A DNA stretch of 52,703 nt, taken from positions 1 to 52,703 of IMG/VR virus record IMGVR_UViG_3300031857_000265; one strand, given 5' to 3'. The position numbers and the translations under genes were made by a program. Of this stretch, positions 2 through 49,470 are shown piece after piece. The stretch comes from a virus. The number at the start of each line of letters is the position of its first letter. Within the stretch, counting starts at the first letter, position 1. The notes under the pieces were generated by a model that worked only from the letters and a program-made list of their open reading frames with translations, did not search any database and was not told where the DNA came from.

Positions 2-109
2 TACGTAGACAGGTGGAACGGACAGAACCTGCACGCCTCCGTCGCACCCCTCGAGGGGGCGGAGGCGAGGAAGGCCGAGGTCACCAAGGCCAAATGGAGG
101 AAGTCGTGA
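2..109 (+). CDS. C-terminal end of an upstream gene, unknown function (5' partial)
   Basis: An open frame enters from the left edge and ends at a TGA at 107-109, giving about 35 residues that finish in ...KWRKS. It is charged, with plausible amino-acid composition, and its stop overlaps the GTG start of the next gene in a GTGA, as at many other junctions here. The competing frame over the same bases reads as low-complexity Arg/Gly and is the upstream shadow of the next gene. By position, just ahead of capsid genes, it could be the end of a head-morphogenesis or portal-related gene, but nothing in the short fragment identifies it. Confidence 0.5.
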   Translation, partial: YVDRWNGQNLHASVAPLEGAEARKAEVTKAKWRKS

Positions 110-3100
110 AGCCCGTCGACCGGCGCGACGACCGCACCGCCCTCACGAGGGAGCAGGCCGTCGCCGCGGCGAGGTCAACGGGCTGCGAGGGGGCGCACGA
201 GGTGGAGGGCGGCTGGATGCCGTGTTCGTCGCCCGAGGAACTCAGGCGTGTTTCCGCCTCAGCGGAGAGCGACTCGTGGCTTGAGTCGTCCGTGTCCGAC
301 AAGGGCGGGGTCTCGCCGTCGGGCAGGAGGCGCAAGAGGCGTGTCCGCCGATGGGAGAACCTGGTGGAGAGGTCCTACGGAATGACGGGCGTACCGGGTC
401 TGGGTGTCGTTTCCGCCCCTCCCGCCAAGCCGACGTCGCCGATGGGCGACTCCTACGCCTCGGGACCGTCCGGGGTCATCACGCTGACGGCCGAGGGCAA
501 GGCGTTCGCGCCTTTCACCCCAGAGGTCGGCGACCCCGACGTGTACACCTCCCCCGACGCGGCGAGGATGCGGGCTAGGCAGGTCGGCTGTACGGGGATC
601 AGGAGGTACACCACGCCGTCGGGAAGGCAGGCGTGGATGCCATGCACCACCGGTGTCACCTTCGACAGGAACATGGGATACGGGGCGTACTCTCGTACGG
701 GGAGCCGCCTCGAGTCGGCGAGGGTCGAGCGGGAGGTGCGCAGGCAACTGAGGGCCGCCGGGTTCAGCGGCAAGAAGTCCGCCAGAAGGCTCGCCGCTAC
801 GCCGGCGAAGCCCTCGGAGAGGATCTCGGGCTCCTCCGTCAACAAGCCCGGCTCGTCCGCCTCGGCGAGGAGCGCATCGGGGATCGTGCTCTCGGCGGAG
901 CAGCAGAAGGCACTCGTCGTCAAGGCGAGGGAGCACAACGCCAAGATGCGCGAGGCGGGCAAGCAGAAGTGGTCGAGGACGTCGTCCGCCACGCTCAAGG
1001 CAGTCATGAGGCGTGGCATGGGGGCGTTCAGCTCGTCCCACCGACCCGACGTCTCCTCCCGCCAGCAGTGGGGAATGGGCAGGGTGAACGCGTTCTTGGT
1101 GATGCTCGAGACGGGCAGGCCGAAGAACCCGAGATACACGACGGACAACGACCTCCTGCCCAAGGGCCACCCCTGGAAAGAACGAACGGCCGGTGGTCAG
1201 TCCACCAAGAAGGAGCCGATCGACGCAGACAGGGACGGGTGGGTCGACGAGGGCAAGCCGACGAGGAGGTTCGTCGGTTTCAGCCTCCTCGGTCGCGCCG
1301 CTAGGTCGGGCGCGGCGAGGGCGAGGACGATGGACGTCGCCGGCTCCGGCGGTTCGAGGCGCGGCAAGAGGACCGTCCGCGTCTCGGCTGGGGGCGGCAT
1401 CGCCGGCAGGGCAAGGGCTAGGAGGTTGTCCAGAGAGATCGAGGGCACGGTGTCGCGCATCTCCGAGGGGAGGACGACGCGCCCCGACTTCAAGCCGAGC
1501 ATCACCGGGAACGTCCCGAAGAGGATCTCGTCCGACAGGCTGAGGAGGCTGAAGCCCCAACGCGTGAACCACAACTCGCTCGTCGCAACGCAGAGGGCCT
1601 ACCCGAAGGCTCCGATGCCCGAGGGCGAACACAGGGTCACCACGCTGAAGGAGCTCGGCACCGCCCCCGGGGGCGGCATCGGCAGCACGTTCGACCACTT
1701 CAAGATCGGCTCCGGGGAGATCCCCGCCGAGAGGAAGGCACTCCACGAGGAGATCATCCAGTCGATCCTGTTCGGCGGCGGCAAGTGGTCGCCGAAGAGG
1801 CAGGAGAAACCCGCCGTGTGGTTCATGGGCGGGGGGCCGGCCTCGGGGAAGACGTTCCTGAGGCAGGGCGGCTTCTTCGACACGCCATCCCGTGGCGAGG
1901 CGGTCCACCTCGACGCAGACGAGATCAAGCAGATGATCCCCGAGTTCGACTCGCTCGTCAAGGAACTCACGGACGCGGGCATGGACCCGACCGCCGCGGC
2001 GTCCGCCGTCCACTCCGAATCCACGTACATCCAGAGGCTTGCCATGGCCAGGGCCGCGGAGCAGGGCTTCCACATCGTCCTGGACAGCACGGGCGACGGT
2101 GGGCCGAAGAGCTTCCACTCCAAGATCGACGTCCTCAAGGCGGCCGGCTACAAGGTAAAGGGCAGGTTCGCAGACGTCTCGCTCGGGAAGGCGCTGTCGG
2201 ACGCGAAGACCAGGCAGAAGGAAACGGGGCGCGGAGTACCCGACGACGTCGTCATCGACACCCACATCGACGTGGCAAGGGCGGTGCTGTACGGACTGCA
2301 GTACGACATCTTCGACGACCTGGAGATAGTCAGCAACGAAAACCACTCGTCCCCAACGACCATGGCCGCGTTCAAGGACGGCGTGCTCGTTGTCCACGAC
2401 CCCAAGAAGTGGTCAGAGTTCATCAGCAAGGCCAAACTCGCCTTCACCAATGACTACGAGAGCGACTACTTCGGTGGGGCGGACAGGGGCGCACGGGGCC
2501 GGTCGCCTCGCTCCAAGCCGAGGAAGACGAGGGTAAGTGGTGTCGACGGGGCGGACATGCTCGTCGCCGAGCCGGTTGAGTCTCTTGCTGACGCCCTCCC
2601 GAAGACGGGCATTGACTACCGCAAGGTGAAGGCAGTACCGGCGGAGAAAAGGGCCGCGATCGCGAAGGCCTACAATGGCCTGCCCGACAGGTCGCCGGAG
2701 GCGAAGGCCGCCTACGACGCCCTCGAGGCCGAGATCAGGGAGCAGTTCCGCATGTTGACCGATGACCTCGGGGTGGAGGTCCAGTTTGTCGACGAGGACC
2801 CGTATGCCGACGCCGTGGAGATGATGGACGACGTGGAGAACAACGGTGTCCTGAAGGTGCTGAAGAGTTCTGCGACCGGTGGCCACCCGTATTGGTCGGA
2901 CGAGACCAACGACATGTTCCGCGCCGTCCACGACGCCTTTGGGCATGCCGCCACGGGGCGCGGCTTTGACAGGCACGGCGAGGAGGCGGCCTACCAGGCC
3001 CACCGCTCCATGGTCAAGGACGCCCTGGCGCGTCTCGCCCTCGCCACGGAGACGAGGGGGCAGAACTCATGGCTCATCGAGAACGGTGAGTTCCCCGAGC

Positions 3101-3561
3101 AGAAGATGGCACTCCTCGACGAGGAACTCGCCAAGCAGGCCGGCGGTCTGCCGCAGATGCCGATGATGGCGGCCGTCCCCGACGTCGACCCCCAGCAAGA
3201 GGCCCAGTACGACGTCCCCGCAACGGCCGACCAAGACAACGCCTTCGAGAGCACGAGGTGCCACCACGTGTCCGGCGGCAGGAGGGTCGCAGCCACCGAT
3301 GCGGAGACCGACAGGTCGTCGCTCTACTCGTCGCTCGGCGAGGACGTCAGACTGTCCCCCGAGTCGAGGCAGAGGCTGTACGAGTTCGCCGCCCGCGGGG
3401 GTCAGACCCTCGAGGGGTCGGGCTTCGACGAATCCAACCCCAAGATCGCCGCGTACTTCAAGAGGGCGAAGAAATCGGTCAAGAAGATCGGCAAGGGCAT
3501 CGTGGCGGACATCCCGACCTCGGCGGTCGAGTCGGTCCCCGACACCATCGGTGCGGGATAG
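106..3561 (+). CDS. Large multidomain polyvalent-type protein with zeta-toxin-like kinase domain, next to capsid gene
   Basis: The protein has about 1151 aa. The start is GTG at 106, with GGAGG at 96-100 and GTGA overlap with the upstream stop. Modules in order: two Cys motifs of the form GCxG...WMPC (about residues 30-45 and 160-185), a motif known from phage head-region proteins; a basic region with RRGMGAFSSSHRP and TTDNDLLPKGHP; an EF-hand-like acidic loop DADRDGWVDEG (about 370); a P-loop kinase segment with Walker A GGGPASGKT (575-583) and zeta-toxin-like spacing through about residue 770; and a C-terminal module with FGHAATGRGFDRHGEEAAY (about 945-963). Zeta toxins phosphorylate UDP-N-acetylglucosamine, but whether this domain does is unknown. 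It sits directly before the major capsid gene, where a protease or minor head protein is usual, so it may be packaged. I see no protease motif. The domain calls are by eye, and the kinase is the surest. Confidence 0.75.
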   Translation: MKPVDRRDDRTALTREQAVAAARSTGCEGAHEVEGGWMPCSSPEELRRVSASAESDSWLESSVSDKGGVSPSGRRRKRRVRRWENLVERSYGMTGVPGLGVVSAPPAKPTSPMGDSYASGPSGVITLTAEGKAFAPFTPEVGDPDVYTSPDAARMRARQVGCTGIRRYTTPSGRQAWMPCTTGVTFDRNMGYGAYSRTGSRLESARVEREVRRQLRAAGFSGKKSARRLAATPAKPSERISGSSVNKPGSSASARSASGIVLSAEQQKALVVKAREHNAKMREAGKQKWSRTSSATLKAVMRRGMGAFSSSHRPDVSSRQQWGMGRVNAFLVMLETGRPKNPRYTTDNDLLPKGHPWKERTAGGQSTKKEPIDADRDGWVDEGKPTRRFVGFSLLGRAARSGAARARTMDVAGSGGSRRGKRTVRVSAGGGIAGRARARRLSREIEGTVSRISEGRTTRPDFKPSITGNVPKRISSDRLRRLKPQRVNHNSLVATQRAYPKAPMPEGEHRVTTLKELGTAPGGGIGSTFDHFKIGSGEIPAERKALHEEIIQSILFGGGKWSPKRQEKPAVWFMGGGPASGKTFLRQGGFFDTPSRGEAVHLDADEIKQMIPEFDSLVKELTDAGMDPTAAASAVHSESTYIQRLAMARAAEQGFHIVLDSTGDGGPKSFHSKIDVLKAAGYKVKGRFADVSLGKALSDAKTRQKETGRGVPDDVVIDTHIDVARAVLYGLQYDIFDDLEIVSNENHSSPTTMAAFKDGVLVVHDPKKWSEFISKAKLAFTNDYESDYFGGADRGARGRSPRSKPRKTRVSGVDGADMLVAEPVESLADALPKTGIDYRKVKAVPAEKRAAIAKAYNGLPDRSPEAKAAYDALEAEIREQFRMLTDDLGVEVQFVDEDPYADAVEMMDDVENNGVLKVLKSSATGGHPYWSDETNDMFRAVHDAFGHAATGRGFDRHGEEAAYQAHRSMVKDALARLALATETRGQNSWLIENGEFPEQKMALLDEELAKQAGGLPQMPMMAAVPDVDPQQEAQYDVPATADQDNAFESTRCHHVSGGRRVAATDAETDRSSLYSSLGEDVRLSPESRQRLYEFAARGGQTLEGSGFDESNPKIAAYFKRAKKSVKKIGKGIVADIPTSAVESVPDTIGAG

Positions 3562-3687: not shown

Positions 3688-5049
3688 ATGTCCAACGACA
3701 AAGCACGAATCAGCGAACTGCAGAACGCGCTTCGCAAGAAGATGGCCGACAACAAGGCCATCGCCGATTCCTTCAAGGTCGAGGAAGGCACCGTCGTGGT
3801 GTCGACCGAGCAGAAGGCGGCCTTCGACGCCAACATGCGCGACATCAAGGAAATCAAGGGCCTGATCGAGGGCCTCGAGTCCATGGGAGAGGTCAGCTCG
3901 TGGTCGAGCGAGCCCGCCGGCGACTCGGTTGGAGCAGCCGCGGCCGCCGGTTCGGCGGCCCGCCCCTCGTACGGCGCCAAGAGCCTCGGACAGCTGTTCA
4001 TCGACTCGCCCGAGTTCAAGTCGCTCAACGGCGGCAAGAACGGCGCGAACATGCCCAGCCCGTTCATCCTCAACTCCGGAGACATCACCGGATCCGGCTG
4101 GGGACAGAAGGACGTGTACAGCGGCTTGCTCGACACGACCGGCCTTTCGTTCACCGGTTTCGGAACCCGTGAGCGCGACCCGCTGGTGATCCCGCCGATG
4201 AGGACCCGTCGCGTCCGCGACCTCTTCCCGGCCCGCACCACCACCGCGGCCGTCATCGAGTACTTCCGCCAGCTGGGCTTCACCACCCCGCCGGTGGATC
4301 CGGCAACCGGCTACCGCGACACCAACGCCGCCGCCCCCGTGGCACAGCGCAGCGGTGGAGCCTTCGCCTCGAAGCCGCAGTCGTCCATGATCTTCGAGGG
4401 TCACCAGGCCCCCGTCCGCACGCTGGCCCACTGGGAAGCCGCGCACCGCAACGTGCTGGCCGACGAGCCCCAGCTGCGCTCGATCATCGACAACGAGCTC
4501 CTCTACGGTCTCCGTCTGCAGGAGGACTACCAGATCCTCCAGGGCGACGGCACCGGCGAGAACCTGCTCGGCGTGCTCGAGACCCCCGGCGTGCAGGAGT
4601 ACGCATGGGCCGATGGAGCCACGACCCCCGTCCCGGACACCAAGGCTGACGCGCTTCGCCGCGCCGCCACCCTGGCGTTCTTGGCCTACTACGAGCCGAC
4701 CGGCGTCGTTCTCCACCCGAACGACTGGGAAGACATCGAGCTGACCAAGAACACGCAGGGCACCTACCTCATGGCCGTGTCCATGCAGGTCGGCTCCGAG
4801 GCGAGGATCTGGCGCATGCCGGTCATCGACACCCCCGCCATCCCCGAGGGCACGGCTCTCGTCGGAGCCTTCGGCACCGGCGCCCAGCTGTACGACCGCG
4901 AGCAGGCGAACATCAGGATCAGCGAGCAGCACGCGGACTTCTTCGTCCGCAACGCCATCGTCATCCTCGCCGAGCAGCGTCTGGCCCTGGCCGTCAAGCG
5001 TCCCGAGGCGTTCGTCAAGGTGGACTTCACCACCGGCGCACCCGACTGA
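3688..5049 (+). CDS. Major capsid protein, HK97 fold
   Basis: The 453-aa protein forms the icosahedral shell. About the first 110 residues are charged and partly coiled-coil (...DANMRDIKEIKGLIEG...), followed by a Ser/Ala/Gly linker, which fits an HK97-type delta domain removed by a maturation protease. The rest has the HK97 capsid pattern, with LRLQEDYQILQGDGTGENLLGV, a typical E-loop/spine-to-P-domain sequence, and ...PTGVVLHPNDW.... Its ATG follows an AGGAG site and an A-rich leader, and a strong hairpin terminator follows the stop. Arginine codons differ from the neighbours: only 3 of 27 are AGG, the rest being almost all CGC or CGT, which suggests selection for high expression. No prohead protease is visible in the window. 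Confidence 0.93.
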   Translation: MSNDKARISELQNALRKKMADNKAIADSFKVEEGTVVVSTEQKAAFDANMRDIKEIKGLIEGLESMGEVSSWSSEPAGDSVGAAAAAGSAARPSYGAKSLGQLFIDSPEFKSLNGGKNGANMPSPFILNSGDITGSGWGQKDVYSGLLDTTGLSFTGFGTRERDPLVIPPMRTRRVRDLFPARTTTAAVIEYFRQLGFTTPPVDPATGYRDTNAAAPVAQRSGGAFASKPQSSMIFEGHQAPVRTLAHWEAAHRNVLADEPQLRSIIDNELLYGLRLQEDYQILQGDGTGENLLGVLETPGVQEYAWADGATTPVPDTKADALRRAATLAFLAYYEPTGVVLHPNDWEDIELTKNTQGTYLMAVSMQVGSEARIWRMPVIDTPAIPEGTALVGAFGTGAQLYDREQANIRISEQHADFFVRNAIVILAEQRLALAVKRPEAFVKVDFTTGAPD

Positions 5050-5086
5050 CCCAGACGGAGTGAGTGGGGAGCGATCCCCCGAAGGA

Positions 5087-5114
5087 AAGGCCCCCGGAGA
5101 AATCCGGGGGCCTT
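5087..5114. terminator. Strong hairpin terminator, probably bidirectional
   Basis: A perfect 12-bp stem (AAGGCCCCCGGA at 5087-5098 with its complement at 5103-5114) is closed by a GAAA tetraloop. It is flanked by A-rich sequence on the left and a T/C-rich tract on the right. It lies between the stop of the capsid gene on the plus strand and the stop of the minus-strand ribonucleotide-reductase unit, so it can end both convergent transcripts. Confidence 0.8.
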
Positions 5115-5127
5115 CCTCGTTCTCGGG

Positions 5128-5508
5128 CTACTGCTTCCTGCCGTTCGCTATCGCCATCGTGTCGCCGCAACCGCGGAGCAGCATGACGGCGTCCTCCGTG
5201 GTGTTGGACGGGTCGTCCTCCCACGCGTAGATGTCACCCGTCTCGGAGTCGACGCACTCCCACGCCAACAGAGCGGCGGGGCGTGTCGTCTGCGGGACGT
5301 CCGTGGCTATTGCCTCTGGGTCATCGCTCAACTTCTTCCACGGGACGCCGGACGCGACCATGATCGCCCCGACGACGCTGACCGTCCCCGTTGCCCTGTT
5401 CCTGACCGCCCCTCTGCAGAGACCCCTCGTCGCCACCTCCCGCGCCGCGACCATGAGGATCGCCGACGCACGGGAGGTGTTCAGTTCAGAGAACGGCACT
5501 TCGGTCAC
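5128..5508 (-). CDS. DUF6197-like protein
   Basis: The 126-aa protein starts at GTG 5508, overlapping the stop of the upstream reductase gene as GTGA, so it is probably translationally coupled. The sequence follows the pattern of the DUF6197 family common in actinophages: a helix (SAILMVAAREVATRGLCRGA), a GAI core element, LLAWECVDSETGDIYAWEDD, and a final T-x-E-D-A-V-M-L-L-R helix. Typical members have CxxGA where this has SVVGA. The family has no established function. It ends next to the bidirectional hairpin. Confidence 0.6.
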   Translation of the reverse strand: MTEVPFSELNTSRASAILMVAAREVATRGLCRGAVRNRATGTVSVVGAIMVASGVPWKKLSDDPEAIATDVPQTTRPAALLAWECVDSETGDIYAWEDDPSNTTEDAVMLLRGCGDTMAIANGRKQ

Positions 5509-7958: not shown

Positions 7959-9284
7959 ATGAACAGACCCAAGGTTCTTTCGCTCTTCAGCGGCGCCGGC
8001 GGACTAGATCTCGGGCTTGAGCGGGCCGGGATGGAAGTCGTCGCGCTGTGCGAGATCGACCCCAAGGCGAAGATGGTGCTGCGCAAGCACTGGCCACACA
8101 CCCACATCTATGACGACGTAAGAGAGGTAACCCGTGAACGACTCATCGCAGACGGCATCGCCCGCCCAGACATTGTGGCAGGAGGAAGTCCCTGTCAGGA
8201 CCTCTCCGTTGCCGGACGTCGTAAGGGACTTGATGGATCTCGCTCAGGGCTCTTCTGGGAGCAGTGCCGGATCTCCGACGAAATCGGGGCGGACATCCTC
8301 TGGGAGAACGTCCCCGGCGCCCTATCTAGTAACAACGGAGCCGACTTCGCTGCCGTGCTGTGGGGAATCACAGGAGCACTCGTCGAGCTGCCCCCTAAGC
8401 AGAAGTGGGCCAAGTCCGGCGTCCTGGTGGGACCAAAGCGGACAGCCATCTGGCGTGTTGCCGATGCCCAACGTTTCGGAGTTCCCCAACGACGGCGTCG
8501 TATCTACGTTGTCGGATGTTCTGGAACCGTGGCACGAGGGCTTGCGCCGCTACTGCTTGAGTGCGCGGGCGGCCAAGGGAATCATCAGGCGGGCCGAGAG
8601 GCGGGGACGAGAGCTCCCCGAACCGTTGCGGACGGCTCTGACGACTCTAGCGGCCCAGGAGCCGGACGAGGAATCACCGACGGAGGACTGACCGCCTGGG
8701 TCAAATCCAAGCGGGCATCGTCCAACACGGACGACGACACGTGGCGCGACCAGCCGGTCAGCCCGACCCTCAACGCGTTCGACAACTCCGGGGAATCGCG
8801 GGCGACCGTGCTCACCGTCCAGGAGGGGGTGCTCCCGTTCACCGAGAACAGGTTCGCCCAGTACGCCGAGGGAGTCGGGGCGTTGCGCGCCTCGGGAGGG
8901 ACGCTCGGCGGCGGGTCCGAGACATTGTTGATCGACAACGCAGGGGTTGCCGCCTGCCTGAGGAGCGGGGGCGACGGCGGTGTCCCATCCAGCAGGGGGG
9001 AGAACCTCGTCGTCCAGCAGGACCGGATCGCCGACACGATCGGCTTCTCGCACACCCAGGGTCTTGACCACCAAGCGTCGACCGAGGCCTTCCCGACGCT
9101 GAGGGCCGAGGGCGGCGGGCACGCCGTCATGTACGACACCAGGTCGACCGTCCTCTTCCAGCAGAACCAGCGGGACGAGGTCAGGATCATGCCGGGGTAC
9201 GCCGGCTCGCTCAACGCCGAGAACGGCATGCACAACACCAACTTTCTCGTGCAACCGCAAGAGGACGACGGTGCCGACATCTGA
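7959..9284 (+). CDS. C5 cytosine DNA methyltransferase, N-terminal catalytic part
   Basis: The 441-aa protein carries the SAM-binding and catalytic half of a DNA (cytosine-5) methyltransferase: motif I FSGAGGLDLG, the Pro-Cys loop GGSPCQDLSVAG with catalytic C79, ENV motif WENVPGAL, and motif VIII QRRRRIYVV. After motif VIII there is no normal target-recognition domain followed by motifs IX-X. Instead come degenerate repeats of the form TLxA...G...V(L/V)V, and the frame ends. Motifs IX-X appear three reading frames later (10271-11443). The gene therefore looks like the first piece of a four-part enzyme. Possible roles are protection against host restriction or signalling of packaged DNA. It hosts an embedded gene in another frame at 8134-8691. 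Confidence 0.85.
   Translation: MNRPKVLSLFSGAGGLDLGLERAGMEVVALCEIDPKAKMVLRKHWPHTHIYDDVREVTRERLIADGIARPDIVAGGSPCQDLSVAGRRKGLDGSRSGLFWEQCRISDEIGADILWENVPGALSSNNGADFAAVLWGITGALVELPPKQKWAKSGVLVGPKRTAIWRVADAQRFGVPQRRRRIYVVGCSGTVARGLAPLLLECAGGQGNHQAGREAGTRAPRTVADGSDDSSGPGAGRGITDGGLTAWVKSKRASSNTDDDTWRDQPVSPTLNAFDNSGESRATVLTVQEGVLPFTENRFAQYAEGVGALRASGGTLGGGSETLLIDNAGVAACLRSGGDGGVPSSRGENLVVQQDRIADTIGFSHTQGLDHQASTEAFPTLRAEGGGHAVMYDTRSTVLFQQNQRDEVRIMPGYAGSLNAENGMHNTNFLVQPQEDDGADI
8134..8691 (+). CDS. Embedded overlapping gene inside the methyltransferase catalytic domain
   Basis: The 185-aa product lies entirely within the methyltransferase gene but in the +1 frame. GTG 8134 is preceded by an AGAGAGGT Shine-Dalgarno sequence five bases upstream. 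The C-terminal part reads VVSTLSDVLE..., then LSARAAKGIIRRAERRG and ELPEPLRTAL. From memory this matches a segment seen in proteins annotated next to or within phage C5 methyltransferases (LSxKACxGILRRAxxRGKxLP), so I take it as a selected product. The Ser/Pro-rich N-terminal half could be only the shadow of the methyltransferase frame. Function is unknown. A frameshift product joining it to the methyltransferase is another possibility. Confidence 0.5.
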   Translation: MNDSSQTASPAQTLWQEEVPVRTSPLPDVVRDLMDLAQGSSGSSAGSPTKSGRTSSGRTSPAPYLVTTEPTSLPCCGESQEHSSSCPLSRSGPSPASWWDQSGQPSGVLPMPNVSEFPNDGVVSTLSDVLEPWHEGLRRYCLSARAAKGIIRRAERRGRELPEPLRTALTTLAAQEPDEESPTED

Positions 9285-9891
9285 TGGGTACAACAACTGT
9301 TTCACACCGTGGCCGGACATGGGGCAGGCGATCCGCGTCTACGCAGACGACGGGCCTTCGCCGACCCTTTCCTCGCACCACGTACTCGTCCTGCATCGTG
9401 TGATCGTGGCCAGCGAAGAGAACGACCCGTCCCTCTTCAGGAGGCAGAACTTCGGTTCCTACGTGGAGAGCGAACACACACAGGCACTCCTCGCCCGCGA
9501 CTACAAGGAGGGGACCGACCTCGTCGTCCAGCCCGTTTGGTGGGACGGAGGGGAAACCGCCCCGACCCTGACCGCAAAGGGCTCCGACCAGAGGATGCCC
9601 GACAAGGGGCAGTTGTTCGCGGTGCTGCAGGCCGTGCCGATCCAGGACGGGCGGGAGATCGAGAAGAAGCAGAACGGCTTCGGCATAGGCGAGCCGGGCG
9701 ACCCGATGTACACGCTGGACACCACCGGCGCACAGGCGGTCGGTTACGTGCTGTGCTTCGACGGCAAGCGGAACGACGACTTCAGGATGTTCGAGGACTA
9801 CTACCCGACGCTGACGCAGATGATGGGTACGGGGGGCAACAATGTCCCCATGATCATCCACGACATCCCTGGCGACGGGGTGTCCCGATGA
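9271..9891 (+). CDS. Methyltransferase middle segment 1 (target-recognition-like repeats)
   Basis: 206 aa. GTG 9271 lies 14 bases before the end of the preceding piece and in another frame. The sequence has no catalytic motif and consists of units such as SPTLSSHHVLVL, APTLTAKG...LFAV and RNDDFRMFED followed by PTL...GTGGNNVPMII. The last type is familiar from the variable region between motifs VIII and IX of prophage C5 methyltransferases. That context, and the motifs IX-X encoded downstream, argue that this is part of one split enzyme. It could act as a separate subunit or be joined by recoding. Confidence 0.6.
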   Translation: MPTSDGYNNCFTPWPDMGQAIRVYADDGPSPTLSSHHVLVLHRVIVASEENDPSLFRRQNFGSYVESEHTQALLARDYKEGTDLVVQPVWWDGGETAPTLTAKGSDQRMPDKGQLFAVLQAVPIQDGREIEKKQNGFGIGEPGDPMYTLDTTGAQAVGYVLCFDGKRNDDFRMFEDYYPTLTQMMGTGGNNVPMIIHDIPGDGVSR

Positions 9892-10274
9892 CCAAATACG
9901 AAAGGGTGCCGCCAGAGGGCGATGACGACACGGTCGCCGCCCTGACGGTCTCCGACCTGGTGAAGGGACAGGGCAACAACCAGTCCATGATGTCCGGCTA
10001 CCTCCAGGTGTACGCACTCCCGCAGGCGTTCTCGGTCAGGGAGGATGCGAAGGCGAACAACTTCCACGCCACCCCGACGGACACCGCGCTGTGCGTGAAC
10101 GCCCTCAGGCCGTCACCGCAGTCGCACCACGCACAGATCTTCATCGTTCAGGCGGAAGTGCCGTGCCAAGTCGACGGCTCGCCCATCGCCTCCACGCTCA
10201 GGGGTTTCGGGCACGGCTGGCAGGGCCAGCACAACTCAACCAACGCAGTCGTACAGGATGCGGAGGAGGGGTGA
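9888..10274 (+). CDS. Methyltransferase middle segment 2 (target-recognition-like repeats)
   Basis: 128 aa from ATG 9888, which overlaps the preceding stop as ATGA. It contains three more degenerate units (AALTVSDLVKGQGNN...LQVY, ALCVNALRPSP...IFIV, STLRGFGHG...NAVV) and no catalytic motif. It ends inside the next start (GTGA at 10271-10274). Taken alone it would be called hypothetical. The repeat similarity to both neighbours is the reason for placing it in the same enzyme. Confidence 0.55.
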   Translation: MTKYERVPPEGDDDTVAALTVSDLVKGQGNNQSMMSGYLQVYALPQAFSVREDAKANNFHATPTDTALCVNALRPSPQSHHAQIFIVQAEVPCQVDGSPIASTLRGFGHGWQGQHNSTNAVVQDAEEG

Positions 10275-11443
10275 GCGACGTTTACGGCTACGACGAGTAC
10301 AACGACTCCATCGCCGAAGAACTACACCATTCCCTGAGGGCCGGCACGAGGCAGTCCGTCGGTGTCGTACACCCACTCCCGGATGGCGTCAAGTTATTCG
10401 AGCCGATGTCGATGCGCGAGGAGAACTGGGCCGAGAGCGAGGTCAAGAACGCCCTCAGGGCCGGTGCCTCGAAGTCGTCCCACGCCGTCGTCTGCGAGGC
10501 CGTGGAGTCGGAGGAGCCGCAGGCGATCGCCTTCACCACGGAGCAGACCCCCAAGTTCTCGCCCGACCTGGCGTTCACCCTCACGGGCGGTTCGCCGTCG
10601 GGCGGTGGCCAGCCACAGTCCGTCATGCAGCGCGTCCAGATGCTCAACTTCCAGGGGAGCAAGGGGAACACCGTCGTGTCGGACGACGGGCAGTCATTCA
10701 CCCTCAACGCTATGCACGGCCACGACGTCCACGTCATCGCCTACAACATCATGGGCGCACCGCCGAGGGAGCCAGACAGGCCCAACGGCGGCTACTACGT
10801 CAACGAGACGCAGGTGACCAAGACGCTCGACGCCTTCGGCGACGGTCTCAACCCGAGCGTCAACCAGGGCGGCCTCGCCATAGTGACCAGGTCGTGGCCT
10901 GTGTCTTTCAGGGGAAGGGACGGAGGAATGACCGCAGAACAGGGCGAGGAGGGGATCGCCAACACGATCAGGGCTGGGCAGGGCGGGAGCGTCCGCCCCC
11001 ATGTCCTGATCAGCGAAGGCCCCGTGGGCACGCTCACCACGGACATGGGTACGAAGATGCAGGTCAACAACCAGTCCGTCGACAGCAATCACCTCCAGGT
11101 CTTCGCGGAAATCGTGCAAGACCCGGCAGGAACGGGTACTATCGGCACGACGGCGGGGCTGCCCGCCATAGACATGATTGACAAAGAAGGGAATGACATG
11201 ACCGCAAACTCGAACGCACTGGTAGTGAGGCGCCTGACCCCGCTGGAATGTGAGTTGCTCATGGGATGGGAGCCGGGCTGGACCGAGGTCGGCATCACCG
11301 AGAAGGGCGAACTCGTCGAGATGGCCGACACGCATCGCTACAGGATGTGCGGCAACGGTGTCGTCTCCAATGTCGCCCACTGGATCGGGGCAAGGTATGT
11401 CGCGTCCAAGCAGGCCGCGGGTGAATCGGTCGGTTCGTGGTAG
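10271..11443 (+). CDS. C5 cytosine DNA methyltransferase, C-terminal part with motifs IX-X
   Basis: 390 aa from GTG 10271. The first about 300 residues hold seven or so more repeats of the TL(x)AG...V type (SLRAGTRQS, ALRAGASKS, FTLTGGSPS, FTLNAMHGH, NTIRAGQGG, GTLTTDMGT). The end is the classical C5-methyltransferase C-terminus: RRLTPLECELLMGWEPGWT (motif IX side) and RYRMCGNGVVSNVAHWIGARY (motif X, which completes the SAM pocket). The N-terminal piece at 7959-9284 lacks exactly these motifs, so the two ends must belong to one protein fold, either by association or by joining. Confidence 0.75.
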   Translation: MSDVYGYDEYNDSIAEELHHSLRAGTRQSVGVVHPLPDGVKLFEPMSMREENWAESEVKNALRAGASKSSHAVVCEAVESEEPQAIAFTTEQTPKFSPDLAFTLTGGSPSGGGQPQSVMQRVQMLNFQGSKGNTVVSDDGQSFTLNAMHGHDVHVIAYNIMGAPPREPDRPNGGYYVNETQVTKTLDAFGDGLNPSVNQGGLAIVTRSWPVSFRGRDGGMTAEQGEEGIANTIRAGQGGSVRPHVLISEGPVGTLTTDMGTKMQVNNQSVDSNHLQVFAEIVQDPAGTGTIGTTAGLPAIDMIDKEGNDMTANSNALVVRRLTPLECELLMGWEPGWTEVGITEKGELVEMADTHRYRMCGNGVVSNVAHWIGARYVASKQAAGESVGSW

Positions 11444-11649
11444 GCGAGGACGACATCGTCTCCCGGGCGGAGGCGAGGGTCAACCTGGTCCTGTGGGGAG
11501 ACCCGAAGGACTCCTTCTCGGCGAGGGAACTCCTGTTTGTCGTTGACCTACCCGCACTGATTGCGGAGGTGAAGAGGCTTCGCACGGCACTCGAGGAATC
11601 GTCTTCCGAGGTTGAGACCCTCAAGAGGTTCGCCTCTTACGGCGGTTAG
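11437..11649 (+). CDS. Small hypothetical protein with C-terminal coiled coil
   Basis: 70 aa from GTG 11437, overlapping the end of the methyltransferase C-terminal piece by 7 bases. Residues about 40-65 (ALIAEVKRLRTALEESSSEVETL) form a likely coiled coil. Its TAG (11647-11649) shares bases with the stop of the convergent portal gene. Function is unrecognised; from the operon position it could be an accessory of the modification unit. Confidence 0.5.
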   Translation: MVGEDDIVSRAEARVNLVLWGDPKDSFSARELLFVVDLPALIAEVKRLRTALEESSSEVETLKRFASYGG

Positions 11650-44339: not shown

Positions 44340-44944
44340 GCGAGACGAGGATCGTCGTCGGGCAGGAGGTAAGCAACGTCTACATCTCCGCCGACACGAC
44401 CAACCTCGTCGAGGTCACCGATTCCTCGCAGAACCTCGTCGTCGTTTCCCAAGAGTTGCAGAACGTCATCAACGTCGTCACCCGGGGGATGCAGGGTCCG
44501 GCGGGCACGCAGATCATCGACGGGGAGGGTGCGCCGTCCAACTCGATCGGCAGGATCGGCGACTACTTCTTCGACAGACCGAACGGGAGGCTGTACGGCC
44601 CCAAGACGGCCCTCGGGTGGGGCAACACCTACATCCAACTGGCCGCGTACCTGGCCCTCAACGACCTCACGGACGTGCAGTCGGCCGGGGCGGCCGACCA
44701 GGACGTCCTCATGTACAGGGACGCGACCGACACGTGGGTCAACCAGCGGATAAGGTACAGGCACGAACAGCCCGTCCCGTCCGACGAGTGGACGGTGAAC
44801 CACGGTCTCAACACCAAGCCCGCCGCCGTGTCGGTGTTCGACACCTCCCAGGAGATGGTGTTCGGCGAGGTTGACCACGTGAACGAATCGCAGCTCATCC
44901 TCAGGTTCAGCGCGGCCTTCGCGGGGGTGGCGTACCTGACATGA
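44336..44944 (+). CDS. Tail fibre protein with short collagen-like element
   Basis: 202 aa from GTG 44336. A beta-rich N-terminus is followed by [18 protein letters not shown] and [17 protein letters not shown], a typical fibre neck found with collagen-like stalks. The C-terminus ([21 protein letters not shown]...ILRFS) is a fibre-tip beta domain. Its stop overlaps the ATG of the giant collagen-like fibre. Confidence 0.7.
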
Positions 44945-47900
44945 GCGTCAAGCACCTATCCCTCATCAACGCCTCAGGGCTGTCCGTCCACGGCGTCGAG
45001 ATCGACCCGTACGGCGCGACGACGGGGCAGATCCTCAGGTACAACGGGACGAAGTTCGTCCCGGCGCAGAGCATCGACGGGGTCGTCATCACGTCGGCGC
45101 ACGACGGGCAGATCCTCATCTACAACGGCACGAACTGGGTCAACGGCTCCTACCCGACGAACGAGCCGACCGGCCACGAGGACGCCACCCAGAGCACGCT
45201 CGACTTCGACACGGGCACGCGCATCTTCACCATCGCCCCAGCGTCGACCTCTCACGCCGTGTGGTGCAACGGCAAGCGGTACGTAAAGACGACGGCCGAG
45301 ACCGTCACCCTCCCGAACCAGTCGGATCTCTACTTCGTCTACTACAACTCGTCGGGATCGCTCGCCTACTCGACGACGTTCTTCGACCTCCAGACGCAGG
45401 CCCCGGTCGCCTACATCTACTGGAACTCCACGGACGGGGCCGACCACTTCTTCGCCGACGAGCGCCACGGCATCACCATGGACTGGGCGACGCACGAGTA
45501 CCTCCACAGGACCAGGGGGGCGGCGATCGCCGGCGGCTTCGGGGTCAACAACTACACGACCACGGGCAACGGCTCGCTGGACGCCCACGCCAAGATCGAC
45601 ATCGCTAACGGCGTCTTCTTCGACGAGGACAAGAAGATCGAGATCACCCACTCGGCCTCGCCGGTGTACCACTCGTTCCAGCAGGTGCTCCAAGGCGGGG
45701 CGGAGATACCGATCTTCTACCGCACCAACAGCCACTACAGGAGGGACGCCGCCACCAAGTTCCCGATGAAGCAGGGCACGGCGAGGGTCACCTACAACAA
45801 CTACAGCGGCGGGTTGTGGTCCACCCCAGACATCGACAACAACAAGTTCGGCGTCACCTTCGTCGTCGCCACGAACGACGTCCACGCCCCCGTGATCGGC
45901 ATGCTCGGCCAGGCCCAGTACACCGACCAGGGGTCGGCGGAGGCGGCGAGGTGGGAGGACATGGTCCTCGACGACTTCCCGGTCTACGAGTTCCGCCCCC
46001 TCTACAAGATCGTCTACCAGACGGCCAACGCCTACGCGAACACGCCCCACGCCAGGATCACCGCGGTCGTCGACATGCGTGTCGCCCTCACGCCCGGCGG
46101 CTCCGTCCCGGCGACCCCGGTGACAGACCACGGCTCCATGACCGGCCTGTCCGACGACGACCACACGCAGTACCTCACCGATGCGAGGCACGACGCCCTA
46201 GATCACAGCACCGCGCTCGGGTCCGCCGTCCTCGACGACCTCGGCGACGTGTCCGTCCCGTCCCCGTCGTCCATGGACGTCCTCCAGTGGAACGGCACGG
46301 CGTGGGTCGGTTCGCAGGTCGTCGGGCCACAAGGTGCACAGGGCACCCAGGGACCCCAGGGGCCACAGGGCGACACCGGCGCACAGGGCGCACAGGGAGC
46401 TGTGGGCGCACAGGGAACGACCGGACCGCAGGGCGCGCAAGGCGGGGCTGGACCCCAGGGCGCACAGGGTCCGGAGGGCTCGGCCGGCACTCAGGGACCG
46501 CAGGGCTCGCAGGGCGCGACGGGCAGCGAAGGCGCACAGGGCCCGACCGGACCACAGGGACCACAGGGGGACGTGGGGCCACAGGGGGTTCAGGGAGCGC
46601 AGGGTCCCACGGGTCCCCAAGGGTCGGTCGGACCCCAGGGGTCCCAAGGCGCCACCGGGCCACAGGGCGAACAGGGTGCGCAAGGTGTTCCCGGACCGCA
46701 GGGAGAACCTGGCCCCCAAGGAGCACAAGGCGCGACCGGCAGCACCGGCCCGCAGGGACCCCAGGGTTCGGAGGGTCCACAAGGACCGCAGGGCGACATC
46801 GGCGTGCAGGGTCCGCAGGGACCGCAGGGCGATACCGGCGCACAGGGTCCGCAGGGTGCGCAGGGCGCACAAGGGGCGACCGGGCCACAGGGGGTCGAGG
46901 GACCGCAGGGCGCCGAGGGCGCACAAGGACCGTCGGGTCCGCAGGGCGGTGCTGGCCCACAGGGGCCGCAGGGCGACGTCGGGCCCCAGGGACCGCATGG
47001 CTCGACTGGCGCACAGGGGGCGACGGGATCGCAGGGTGCCGAGGGACCGCAGGGTGCGGTGGGGCCACAGGGCGCCACGGGTCCCCAGGGTCCGCAAGGC
47101 TCGACCGGCCCGCAGGGTTCGGTCGGACCACAGGGCGAGGTCGGCCCGCAGGGCGCGACCGGACCGCAGGGGTCGGTCGGACCACAGGGTGACACGGGAC
47201 CGCAGGGGTCAACCGGACCGCAGGGTGCGACGGGAGCGCAGGGACCGCAGGGGGCCGCCGGCCAGTCCTCGAGCTTCTACAAGTACAAGGTGACGACGGG
47301 CTCGACGAGCGGCAACCCCGGCACGTCGTACATCTCGTACAACAACTCCTCGCAGACGTCGGCAACACAACTGCAGGTGAACCACATCGACCTCGACGGT
47401 TACGACATCGACCTGTTCCTCGGCGTCATCTCCACCGGCGATGTCGTCTACATCCAGGACGCCGGCAACTCGAACAACTATCAGAAGTTCATCGCAACGG
47501 GGACTGTTACCGACCACGGGAACTCGTGGGTCGACATCCCTGTGTCGCACGACTCCTCGGGCGGTAGCGGCCTCTCTGGATTCGCCAACGACCTCGGCGT
47601 TCTCCTCGTCATCGCCAACATCGGCCCGCAGGGTCCGCAGGGAGCCGCCGGGTCAAACGGCGCACAGGGCGCTACGGGGGCGCAAGGGGCGACGGGTGCC
47701 CAGGGTCCCCAAGGGGCCACCGGCGACACCGGACCCCAAGGTGCGGTCGGCCCGCAGGGTGCGGTCGGCCCGCAGGGATCACAGGGCGGGGACGGAGCAC
47801 AGGGGTCGACCGGCCCACAGGGCGCGACGGGGCCACAAGGGGCGGAAGGCCCACAGGGCGCGACGGGGTCACAAGGGGCGGAAGGCCCACAGGGCGATAC

Positions 47901-49470
47901 TGGCCCGCAGGGTTCGGTTGGCCCGCAGGGCGATGTCGGCCCACAAGGCGCGACTGGTCCACAAGGCGCGACAGGGCCGCAGGGCGCGACGGGGCCACAG
48001 GGGGATGTCGGCGCACAGGGTGCCACCGGTGCGCAGGGCGCGACGGGACCGCAGGGGGCAACGGGGGCGCAGGGGGCAACGGGGGCGCAGGGACCGCAGG
48101 GGACGACAGGCCCCCAGGGGGACACCGGCCCCCAGGGCGCGACGGGTGCGACGGGAGCCCAGGGGTCGCAGGGACCCTCCGGGCCACAGGGTGCGACGGG
48201 CCCGCAAGGACCGCAGGGCGCAACGGGGCCCCAAGGCGCCACGGGCGCACAAGGCGCACAAGGCGCACAAGGCGGCACCGGGCCACAGGGCGCGACCGGG
48301 CCACAGGGTGCGACGGGTCCCCAGGGCGCGACCGGCGCCCAGGGCGCGACTGGCCCCCAGGGCGCAACCGGCGCAACGGGTTCGCAGGGTCCGCAGGGTT
48401 CCCAGGGCGCAACCGGGGCGACGGGCTCGCAGGGTCCGCAGGGCGCACAGGGGCCAAGCGGCCCGACGGGGACCCTCGACGCCCTGTCCGACGTGACGGC
48501 CCCGTCGCCATCGCCGACGGACTTCCTGATGTGGAACGGAACCGCATGGGTGAACGAGGCGATCAGCCTCGGCACGGACACCACCGGCAACTATGTATCC
48601 GGCGTCTCCGCCGGGACCGGCATCAGCGTCTCGCACACCCCCGCCGAGGGTTCCACGGCGACCGTCTCGGTTGACACCACCTACTCCGGCTTCGCCCCCG
48701 TCGGTGCGATGCTGCCGTGGGCCGGTGGCGCCAACACGACGGCCACGTACACGAACTCGGACGTGCCGTCGGGGTGGTTGTTGTGCGACGGCCAGGCCGT
48801 TTCCAGGACAGGCACCTACGCCGCCCTGTTCGCCGTCATCGGGATCCGCTACGGGCAGGGCGATGGCAGCACGACGTTCAACCTGCCGAACCTCATGGGG
48901 CAGATCCCCGTCGGCAGCAAGACCGCGAACGCGGCGACGAACAACGTTCGCGTCACCTCGGTCTCCATCTCCACGGCGAACAGCACGGCGAACCACGCCC
49001 ACTCGATGAACGCATCGAGCATAACGAACGCAAACGCCGTGGCCGACCACGCCCACAGCATGAACGCCTCGAACGTGACCATCACGGCAGACCAGGGCGG
49101 GCACACCCACTACACGGCCGGCAACATCACGATTGTCGCCGCCAACGACGACCACGTGCACCCGTACTTCAAGCCCAACTCCGGCGTGAACGGATACAAC
49201 ACCGGTACTGCCACCGTCTTCAGCCACACGCACAACTCGGGCTGGAACTCGTTGAACGCACAGGGCGGCAACGTGACCGCCCTCTCGTCGACGCACAACC
49301 ACTTAGCGTCGGTCTCCGTCGGTACGCCGGTGGCGACCTCGGGCAACGCGACGCTACACTCGCACACGAACACGATAAGCATCGGTACGCCGGTGGCGAC
49401 GTCCGGGAACGACACCGCCCACTCACACACCACGGCGGGACAGAACGTCGTGTGGATTATCAGGTTCTGA
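44941..49470 (+). CDS. Giant collagen-like tail fibre with tail-collar domain and HxH tip
   Basis: 1509 aa. N-terminal beta domains (1-460) include [16 protein letters not shown], a trimerisation element of fibres. Gly-X-Y block I spans about 462-773, a beta domain 774-893, and block II 895-1177, roughly 200 triplets dominated by GPQ, GAQ, GAT and GDT. Two copies of a PSPS-x-x-D-x-L-x-WNGTAWV module flank the stalk region. A phage tail-collar domain (about 1250-1320; [29 protein letters not shown]) precedes a tip with eight HxH motifs (about 1350-1495), like the iron-binding end of T4 gp37, and the terminus WIIRF. It is probably the main receptor-binding fibre. A hydroxylase and a glycosyltransferase lie downstream. 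Confidence 0.9.
46324..47260 (+). repeat. Collagen-like Gly-X-Y coding repeat, block I
   Basis: About 104 consecutive 9-bp units encode G-X-Y with Gln or Thr most often in Y and Pro, Ala or Asp in X. Synonymous codons vary (CAG/CAA, GGC/GGG/GGT, CCG/CCC/CCA), so the array is old or kept apart by drift, though local duplications are visible. Such arrays readily expand or contract by recombination. Confidence 0.9.
47623..48470 (+). repeat. Collagen-like Gly-X-Y coding repeat, block II
   Basis: About 94 units of 9 bp. It is more uniform than block I, with runs of GCG-ACG (GAT) and CAG. At least one longer tandem duplication is visible near 47825-47895 (GPQGATG(S/P)QGAEGPQ unit). More recent expansion than in block I is inferred. 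Confidence 0.85.

Follow-up and report, generated by a model that had tools for sequence, protein, structure and literature searches.

Introduction

How is a cytosine C5 DNA methyltransferase made when its coding sequence is spread over four overlapping reading frames? This question is raised by a locus in the IMG/VR virus record IMGVR_UViG_3300031857_000265, which was analysed at its full length of 52.7 kb (52,703 nucleotides, nt; hereafter the window). A preliminary description of the locus left three answers side by side: four subunits that assemble, ribosomes that change frame at each junction, or recent decay. Natural two-chain C5 methyltransferases and fragment complementation are established, and EcoHK31I has two polypeptides (PMC3404938). 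Bacillus phages can place several target-recognition domains (TRDs) on one chain, resisting many restriction–modification systems, and multispecific enzymes of the phi3TI type are supported in outline (PMC12707154). In EcoKI, the M and S subunits overlap and are translationally coupled (PMC3510504). A study of actinophage methylases treats inteins and insertion elements in these proteins and not the split-array arrangement (PMC9957025), and we found no description of a C5 methyltransferase of the present architecture in the open-access collection that was searched.

Here, we report that the locus is a C5 methyltransferase by motif content, cytosine methylation itself being predicted, and that it is probably a multispecific enzyme composed of several separately translated chains. 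If this is true, no multispecific methyltransferase known to us is as extended, and the locus would be a natural example of recognition modules carried on chains of their own; it would also open a direct test of the number of modules per catalytic core and of modules working in trans. The locus bears on the evasion of restriction by phages and on the assembly of methyltransferase specificity from parts.

Organization of the locus

The four open reading frames (ORFs) of the preliminary description, with their coordinates, starts, lengths and sum of 1165 amino acids (aa), were reproduced, as were the three junctions, at each of which the reading frame switches (Table 1). Profile matches agree with the earlier placement of motifs I–VIII and the catalytic cysteine in the first frame and of motifs IX–X in the fourth. 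Residues 5–187 of ORF1 match Pfam DNA_methylase (PF00145, E = 2.6e-36), ORF1 matches PHROG_116 (1.3e-58) and the catalytic PCQ lies in SPCQDLS. ORF4 is clearly matched by PHROG_16528 (3.3e-20), corresponds to the C-terminal end of NCBIfam TIGR00675 (2.3e-5) and has a weak match, under the cut-off, to that of Pfam DNA_methylase (0.0015); motifs IX and X were located in ORF4 as RRLTPLECELLMGW and HRYRMCGNGV. A PDB sequence search with ORF4 as the query gave no significant match. As in the two-chain architecture of the M.AquI type, motifs I–VIII and IX–X are on separate ORFs, and the variable region is divided between them. ORF2 and ORF3, which have no catalytic match in Pfam or PHROGs, contain repeats only, as had been noted; the repeats are not confined to these two ORFs, however, since modules also fill parts of ORF1 and ORF4. 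The four-frame description also left unreported a further conserved ORF that is nested in ORF1.

Table 1. Coordinates of the ORFs of the methyltransferase locus and of their parts in the window.
Feature	Coordinates	Strand	Start	Length (aa)	Content and overlap
ORF1 (alpha)	7959..9284	+	ATG	441	
ORF1, catalytic part	~7971-8519				C5 methyltransferase motifs I-VIII
ORF1, array part	~8745-9266				~5 target-recognition-like modules
Nested ORF	8134..8691	+	GTG	185	+1 frame of ORF1
ORF2	9271..9891	+	GTG	206	14-nt overlap with ORF1
ORF2, array part	~9295-9864				~5 modules and nothing else
ORF3	9888..10274	+	ATG	128	ATGA (4-nt) overlap with ORF2
ORF3, array part	~9921-10271				~3 modules and nothing else
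ORF4	10271..11443	+	GTG	390	GTGA (4-nt) overlap with ORF3
ORF4, array part	~10283-11122				~7 modules
ORF4, C-terminal part	~11222-11395				motifs IX-X
Small ORF	11437..11649	+		70	7-nt overlap with the end of ORF4

Conservation of the split

Four distinct close relatives were found in IMG/VR: L002 (one group with L003 and L006), L004, L005 and L007 (one group with L048). Each carries four or five frames, and the split persists in relatives whose ORF1 identity is as low as about 70%. The window and all four close relatives share the first break, which follows module 5, and the break ahead of the first ORF4 module ('YGYDEYN' or 'WEYDGYN') is also kept in all five; the middle break falls at modules 10/11 in the window, 12/13 in L002 and 10/12 in L004, L005 and L007. 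The overlaps among these loci measure 4, 8, 11, 14 or 20 nt, and with module boundaries cut by hand every break lies between modules and none inside one. Where computable, the ratio of nonsynonymous to synonymous substitution rates (dN/dS) across the ORFs is 0.04-0.34 (ORF1, 0.06-0.34; ORF2, 0.07-0.24; ORF3, 0.08-0.25; ORF4, 0.09-0.13), and the changes are mostly at third codon positions, with ORF1 partly excepted.

These data bear on the view that the locus is one long gene that has decayed or been assembled wrongly. The three frame changes and the existence of long fused relatives would suit it. However, the same kind of arrangement, with intact frames, occurs in several assemblies from different metagenomes, every frame is under purifying selection and all ORFs of the window array have a high G+C content at third codon positions. 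Recent decay, as raised in the preliminary description, is excluded because the split is conserved, third-position changes dominate and dN/dS is low; decay or sequencing error in general was rejected on the same conservation and selection, and we give it practically no credence. The earlier proposal was also to look for homologs in which the frames are fused. Single-ORF homologs do exist, in L068 (about four modules) and L069 (about one), but these are different enzymes (at the nearest, about 62% identity with the L054 query) rather than the same array with shifted bases; no closely related intact fused copies were found.

The two halves of the enzyme are also divided in further phages. In L054 and L055, the motif I–VIII gene and the motif IX–X gene stand apart, with an unrelated ORF of 141 aa between them (L054:4021-4446) whose start is lipoprotein-like, and in the mycobacteriophages Beem and Lucky2013, the two phages examined, the halves are annotated as two genes that share 35 nt. 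The best tree of the catalytic domain accounts for the split label with four changes, at least two of them forced by well-supported branches; since multiple changes are required, splitting probably happened more than once. A search of 84,980 genomes of bacteria and archaea gave no close relatives of ORF1, and no DNA-level relatives were found among isolated phages.

Two observations on single relatives may be added. L005 has a fifth ORF (L005:5977-6276) that carries a second copy of motifs IX–X and starts by ATG right after an in-frame TAA; the L005 phage would therefore have two alternative C-terminal chains. In L030, a related methyltransferase is present as two ORFs in different frames (L030:3406-4821 and 4712-5221) with a 110-nt overlap, for which a sequencing error is possible.

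Translation of the frames

Termination–reinitiation yielding separate chains is the simplest account of how these predicted frames would be translated. The Shine–Dalgarno pairing of the internal starts is stronger than that of background ATG/GTG codons (mean -4.7 versus -2.8 and -2.5; p = 0.004 and 0.001). Alternatively, programmed ribosomal frameshifting might yield a single polyprotein of 1165 aa from the four frames. The frames do abut and overlap, one-ORF relatives with the same modules exist and a CCC-TGA at one L005 junction could permit a +1 slip. Nevertheless, the direction of the shift is not constant: at the homologous first junction, where the overlap is 14 nt in the window, L002 and L005 and 4 nt in L004 and L007, the former three shift to the +1 frame and the latter two to the -1 frame. 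The middle junction changes linker from phage to phage, no recurring slippery heptamer was seen on inspection of the junctions in the window and its close relatives, and a conserved slip site, the usual companion of a constant shift direction in frameshifted genes, was not found. The in-frame TAA–ATG break in L005 and the unrelated gene between the halves in L054 and L055 argue in the same direction. Frameshifting at each junction, one of the three original answers, was therefore rejected, and we consider it very unlikely. The answer of four subunits, on the other hand, is supported by the selection on the frames, by the conserved overlaps and by the physical separation of the halves in L054 and L055.

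The module array

The array of the window was cut by hand into 20 modules (m1–m20) of about 28-45 aa each, in most of which a Gly/Asn-rich stretch comes after a T/S/A-L-x-A-like core. Nearly all are dissimilar within the window, with clear similarity solely between m11 and m20. In other phage C5 methyltransferases, 19 of the 20 have matches (E <= 1e-4), which are ordered differently there and sit on other methyltransferase backbones (for example, m2 m3 m10 m9 m14 in L045, m18 m17 m12 in L010 and m17 m5 in L009); the remaining one, m7, matches L044 at E = 8e-4. Modules also move between ORFs, since m11, an ORF3 module in the window, is found in ORF1 of L005.

The modules are likely to be TRDs, as suggested by their sequence motifs and by a comparison with M.phi3TI, the sequence of which was taken from phage phi3T. 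A hidden Markov model (HMM) of m9, an ORF2 module, scores 17.5 bits against the second module of M.phi3TI, EKRQNGRRFKENGEPAFTVNTIDRHGVA, and an HMM of m6 scores 6.9 bits against the first, RVYSPEGLSPTLT; neither score was reached by any of 3000 shuffles. It is established that M.phi3TI is multispecific and that the matched segments are its TRDs (Trautner and colleagues), and m9 is predicted to recognize the target of the second TRD or one like it.

A gene nested in ORF1

The nested ORF begins at a GTG with a strong Shine–Dalgarno sequence (-9.6 kcal/mol). By length alone it is weak (p = 0.08 in this G+C-rich genome), and its case is therefore made on substitution pattern and homology. In the 25-26 relatives examined, including L002, L004, L005, L007, L054, L068 and L069, the +1 frame is open for 120-233 codons inside the catalytic ORF and ends in a conserved SLSdVLE..vPqRyyLSpKACxGILRRAErRGKxLP. 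At codon positions 1/2/3 of ORF1, the five close relatives differ by 0.11/0.05/0.44 per site before the nested overlap and by 0.07/0.00/0.07 in the motif VI–VIII part. In the tail (residues 191-243) the values become 0.33/0.12/0.09; identity there is 88% for the +1 frame and 65% for the methyltransferase frame. A flip of this kind is the signature of selection on a +1-frame protein.

An HMM of the nested frame was built from sequences outside the window's group. It gives 132 bits for the window, 158 for the mycobacteriophages and 76 for the 'C5 methyltransferase beta subunit' of MM1-1998 (DQ113772). By sequence, the nested ORF is thus a homolog of the nested beta subunit of Streptococcus phage MM1. 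The nested ORF of the window has no direct match to phrog_16143, the family of such nested beta subunits. As it also found nothing among phages by tblastn, that of a relative was used as the query, which had matches in 199 records of phages and 548 of plasmids. A single methyltransferase gene, named dmt in phages as well, accounts for many of the plasmid matches listed. A widespread phage C5 methyltransferase gene family is accordingly dual-coding, with a selected +1-frame protein that has no separate annotation in most of the matches listed.

Proposed mechanism

In the multispecific enzyme that we favour, separate polypeptides would be made by termination–reinitiation at the overlapping stop–start sites. 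The products of ORF1 and ORF4 would dock and rebuild the C5 methyltransferase fold, by analogy with the two chains of M.AquI. Each module may act as a small TRD that directs methylation to a different short sequence, and ORF2 and ORF3 may add recognition modules in trans as separate specificity chains. The nested protein, as an MM1-type beta, would be a partner subunit that aids folding or action of the enzyme. The outcome would be methylation of many different sites in the phage DNA, shielding it from many restriction enzymes; the locus probably protects phage DNA against many such bacterial enzymes simultaneously. Cutting the array into short coupled genes could also tolerate frame-changing insertion or loss of modules, because any linker can host a new stop–start. 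Taken to its full extent, the locus might form a system of exchangeable specificity chains, in which a catalytic alpha, a nested beta, a closing motif IX–X chain and module-only proteins offering TRDs in trans (about 20 TRDs in all) are encoded in one translationally coupled operon; we put this forward tentatively.

Several observations weigh against this mechanism. The internal starts of ORF2 in L005 and of ORF3 in L007 lack good Shine–Dalgarno sequences. The identity of modules and TRDs is based on sequence motifs and on HMM matches for two of the 20 modules. Modules folding like the TRD of HhaI were sought with AlphaFold and none was obtained with confidence: in a fused relative, the predicted local distance difference test score is about 25 over residues 198-412, compared with mostly 70-94 in the catalytic parts, and ORF2 alone has a mean of 35 with no confident module fold. 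For this reason, we regard the TRD identity as likely rather than demonstrated. Moreover, we found no earlier example of a C5 methyltransferase served in trans by chains that hold TRDs only, so ORF2 and ORF3 may have another role or be carried along. The working enzyme would then consist of ORF1, with the nested beta, and ORF4, and the modules of ORF2 and ORF3 would be passengers of array expansion or serve otherwise, for example as a reservoir for recombination into ORF1 and ORF4. The confinement of motifs I–VIII and IX–X to ORF1 and ORF4, the movement of m11 between ORFs and the AlphaFold result for ORF2 are in keeping with this alternative. ORF2 and ORF3 are, however, under purifying selection comparable to that of the other ORFs, and their coupled starts are kept in all close relatives; a passenger role is possible, and we hesitate to call it probable.

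Comparison with known systems

There are distinguishable differences between the locus and each of its known counterparts. Compared with M.AquI, the two-chain C5 methyltransferase of Agmenellum quadruplicatum, the variable region of the window differs and is about 20 modules long, and there are two further module-only chains and a gene nested in chain 1. The enzymes of the SPbeta-group Bacillus phages (M.phi3TI and M.SPR) have serial target-recognition modules between motifs VIII and IX, as the window probably does, and an anti-restriction role for the phage (PMC12707154), which is predicted for the window; two module types of the window are related in sequence to those of M.phi3TI. M.phi3TI nevertheless has two modules on one chain, whereas the window has about 20 on several, and the nested-frame HMM found no match in the other frames of phi3TI. 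Like the window, Streptococcus phage MM1 encodes a second protein within its alpha gene, in the +1 frame; its alpha, in contrast, is an uninterrupted 385-aa chain with motifs I–X. The Omegavirus mycobacteriophages (e.g. Beem gp123/gp124) share motifs I–VIII and IX–X on overlapping ORFs in different frames and a nested +1 ORF, but their split methylases have two ORFs, few modules and the longer overlap given above. M.EcoHK31I, whose second polypeptide is read from another frame inside alpha, may be a related case. To our knowledge, no described enzyme combines a two-chain split, a multispecific-type array and a nested beta, and none has so many modules or module-only chains.

Genome surroundings

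The locus is surrounded by phage capsid, portal, terminase and B12-type ribonucleotide reductase genes. Its flanking genes, reductase and portal, are both on the opposite strand; the locus therefore forms its own short operon, which includes the 70-aa ORF at the end. This small ORF has no family match in Pfam or PHROGs, and similar small ORFs sit 3' of the motif IX–X gene in L048 and L054.

Elsewhere in the window, a 1509-aa ORF (44941-49470), which is probably a tail fibre, contains a long array of 18-nt GC-rich units (46404-48470) with collagen-like coding of the GPQG type. Directly 5' of the capsid gene lies a 1182-aa ORF (13-3561) with a zeta-toxin-like kinase domain at residues 595-776.

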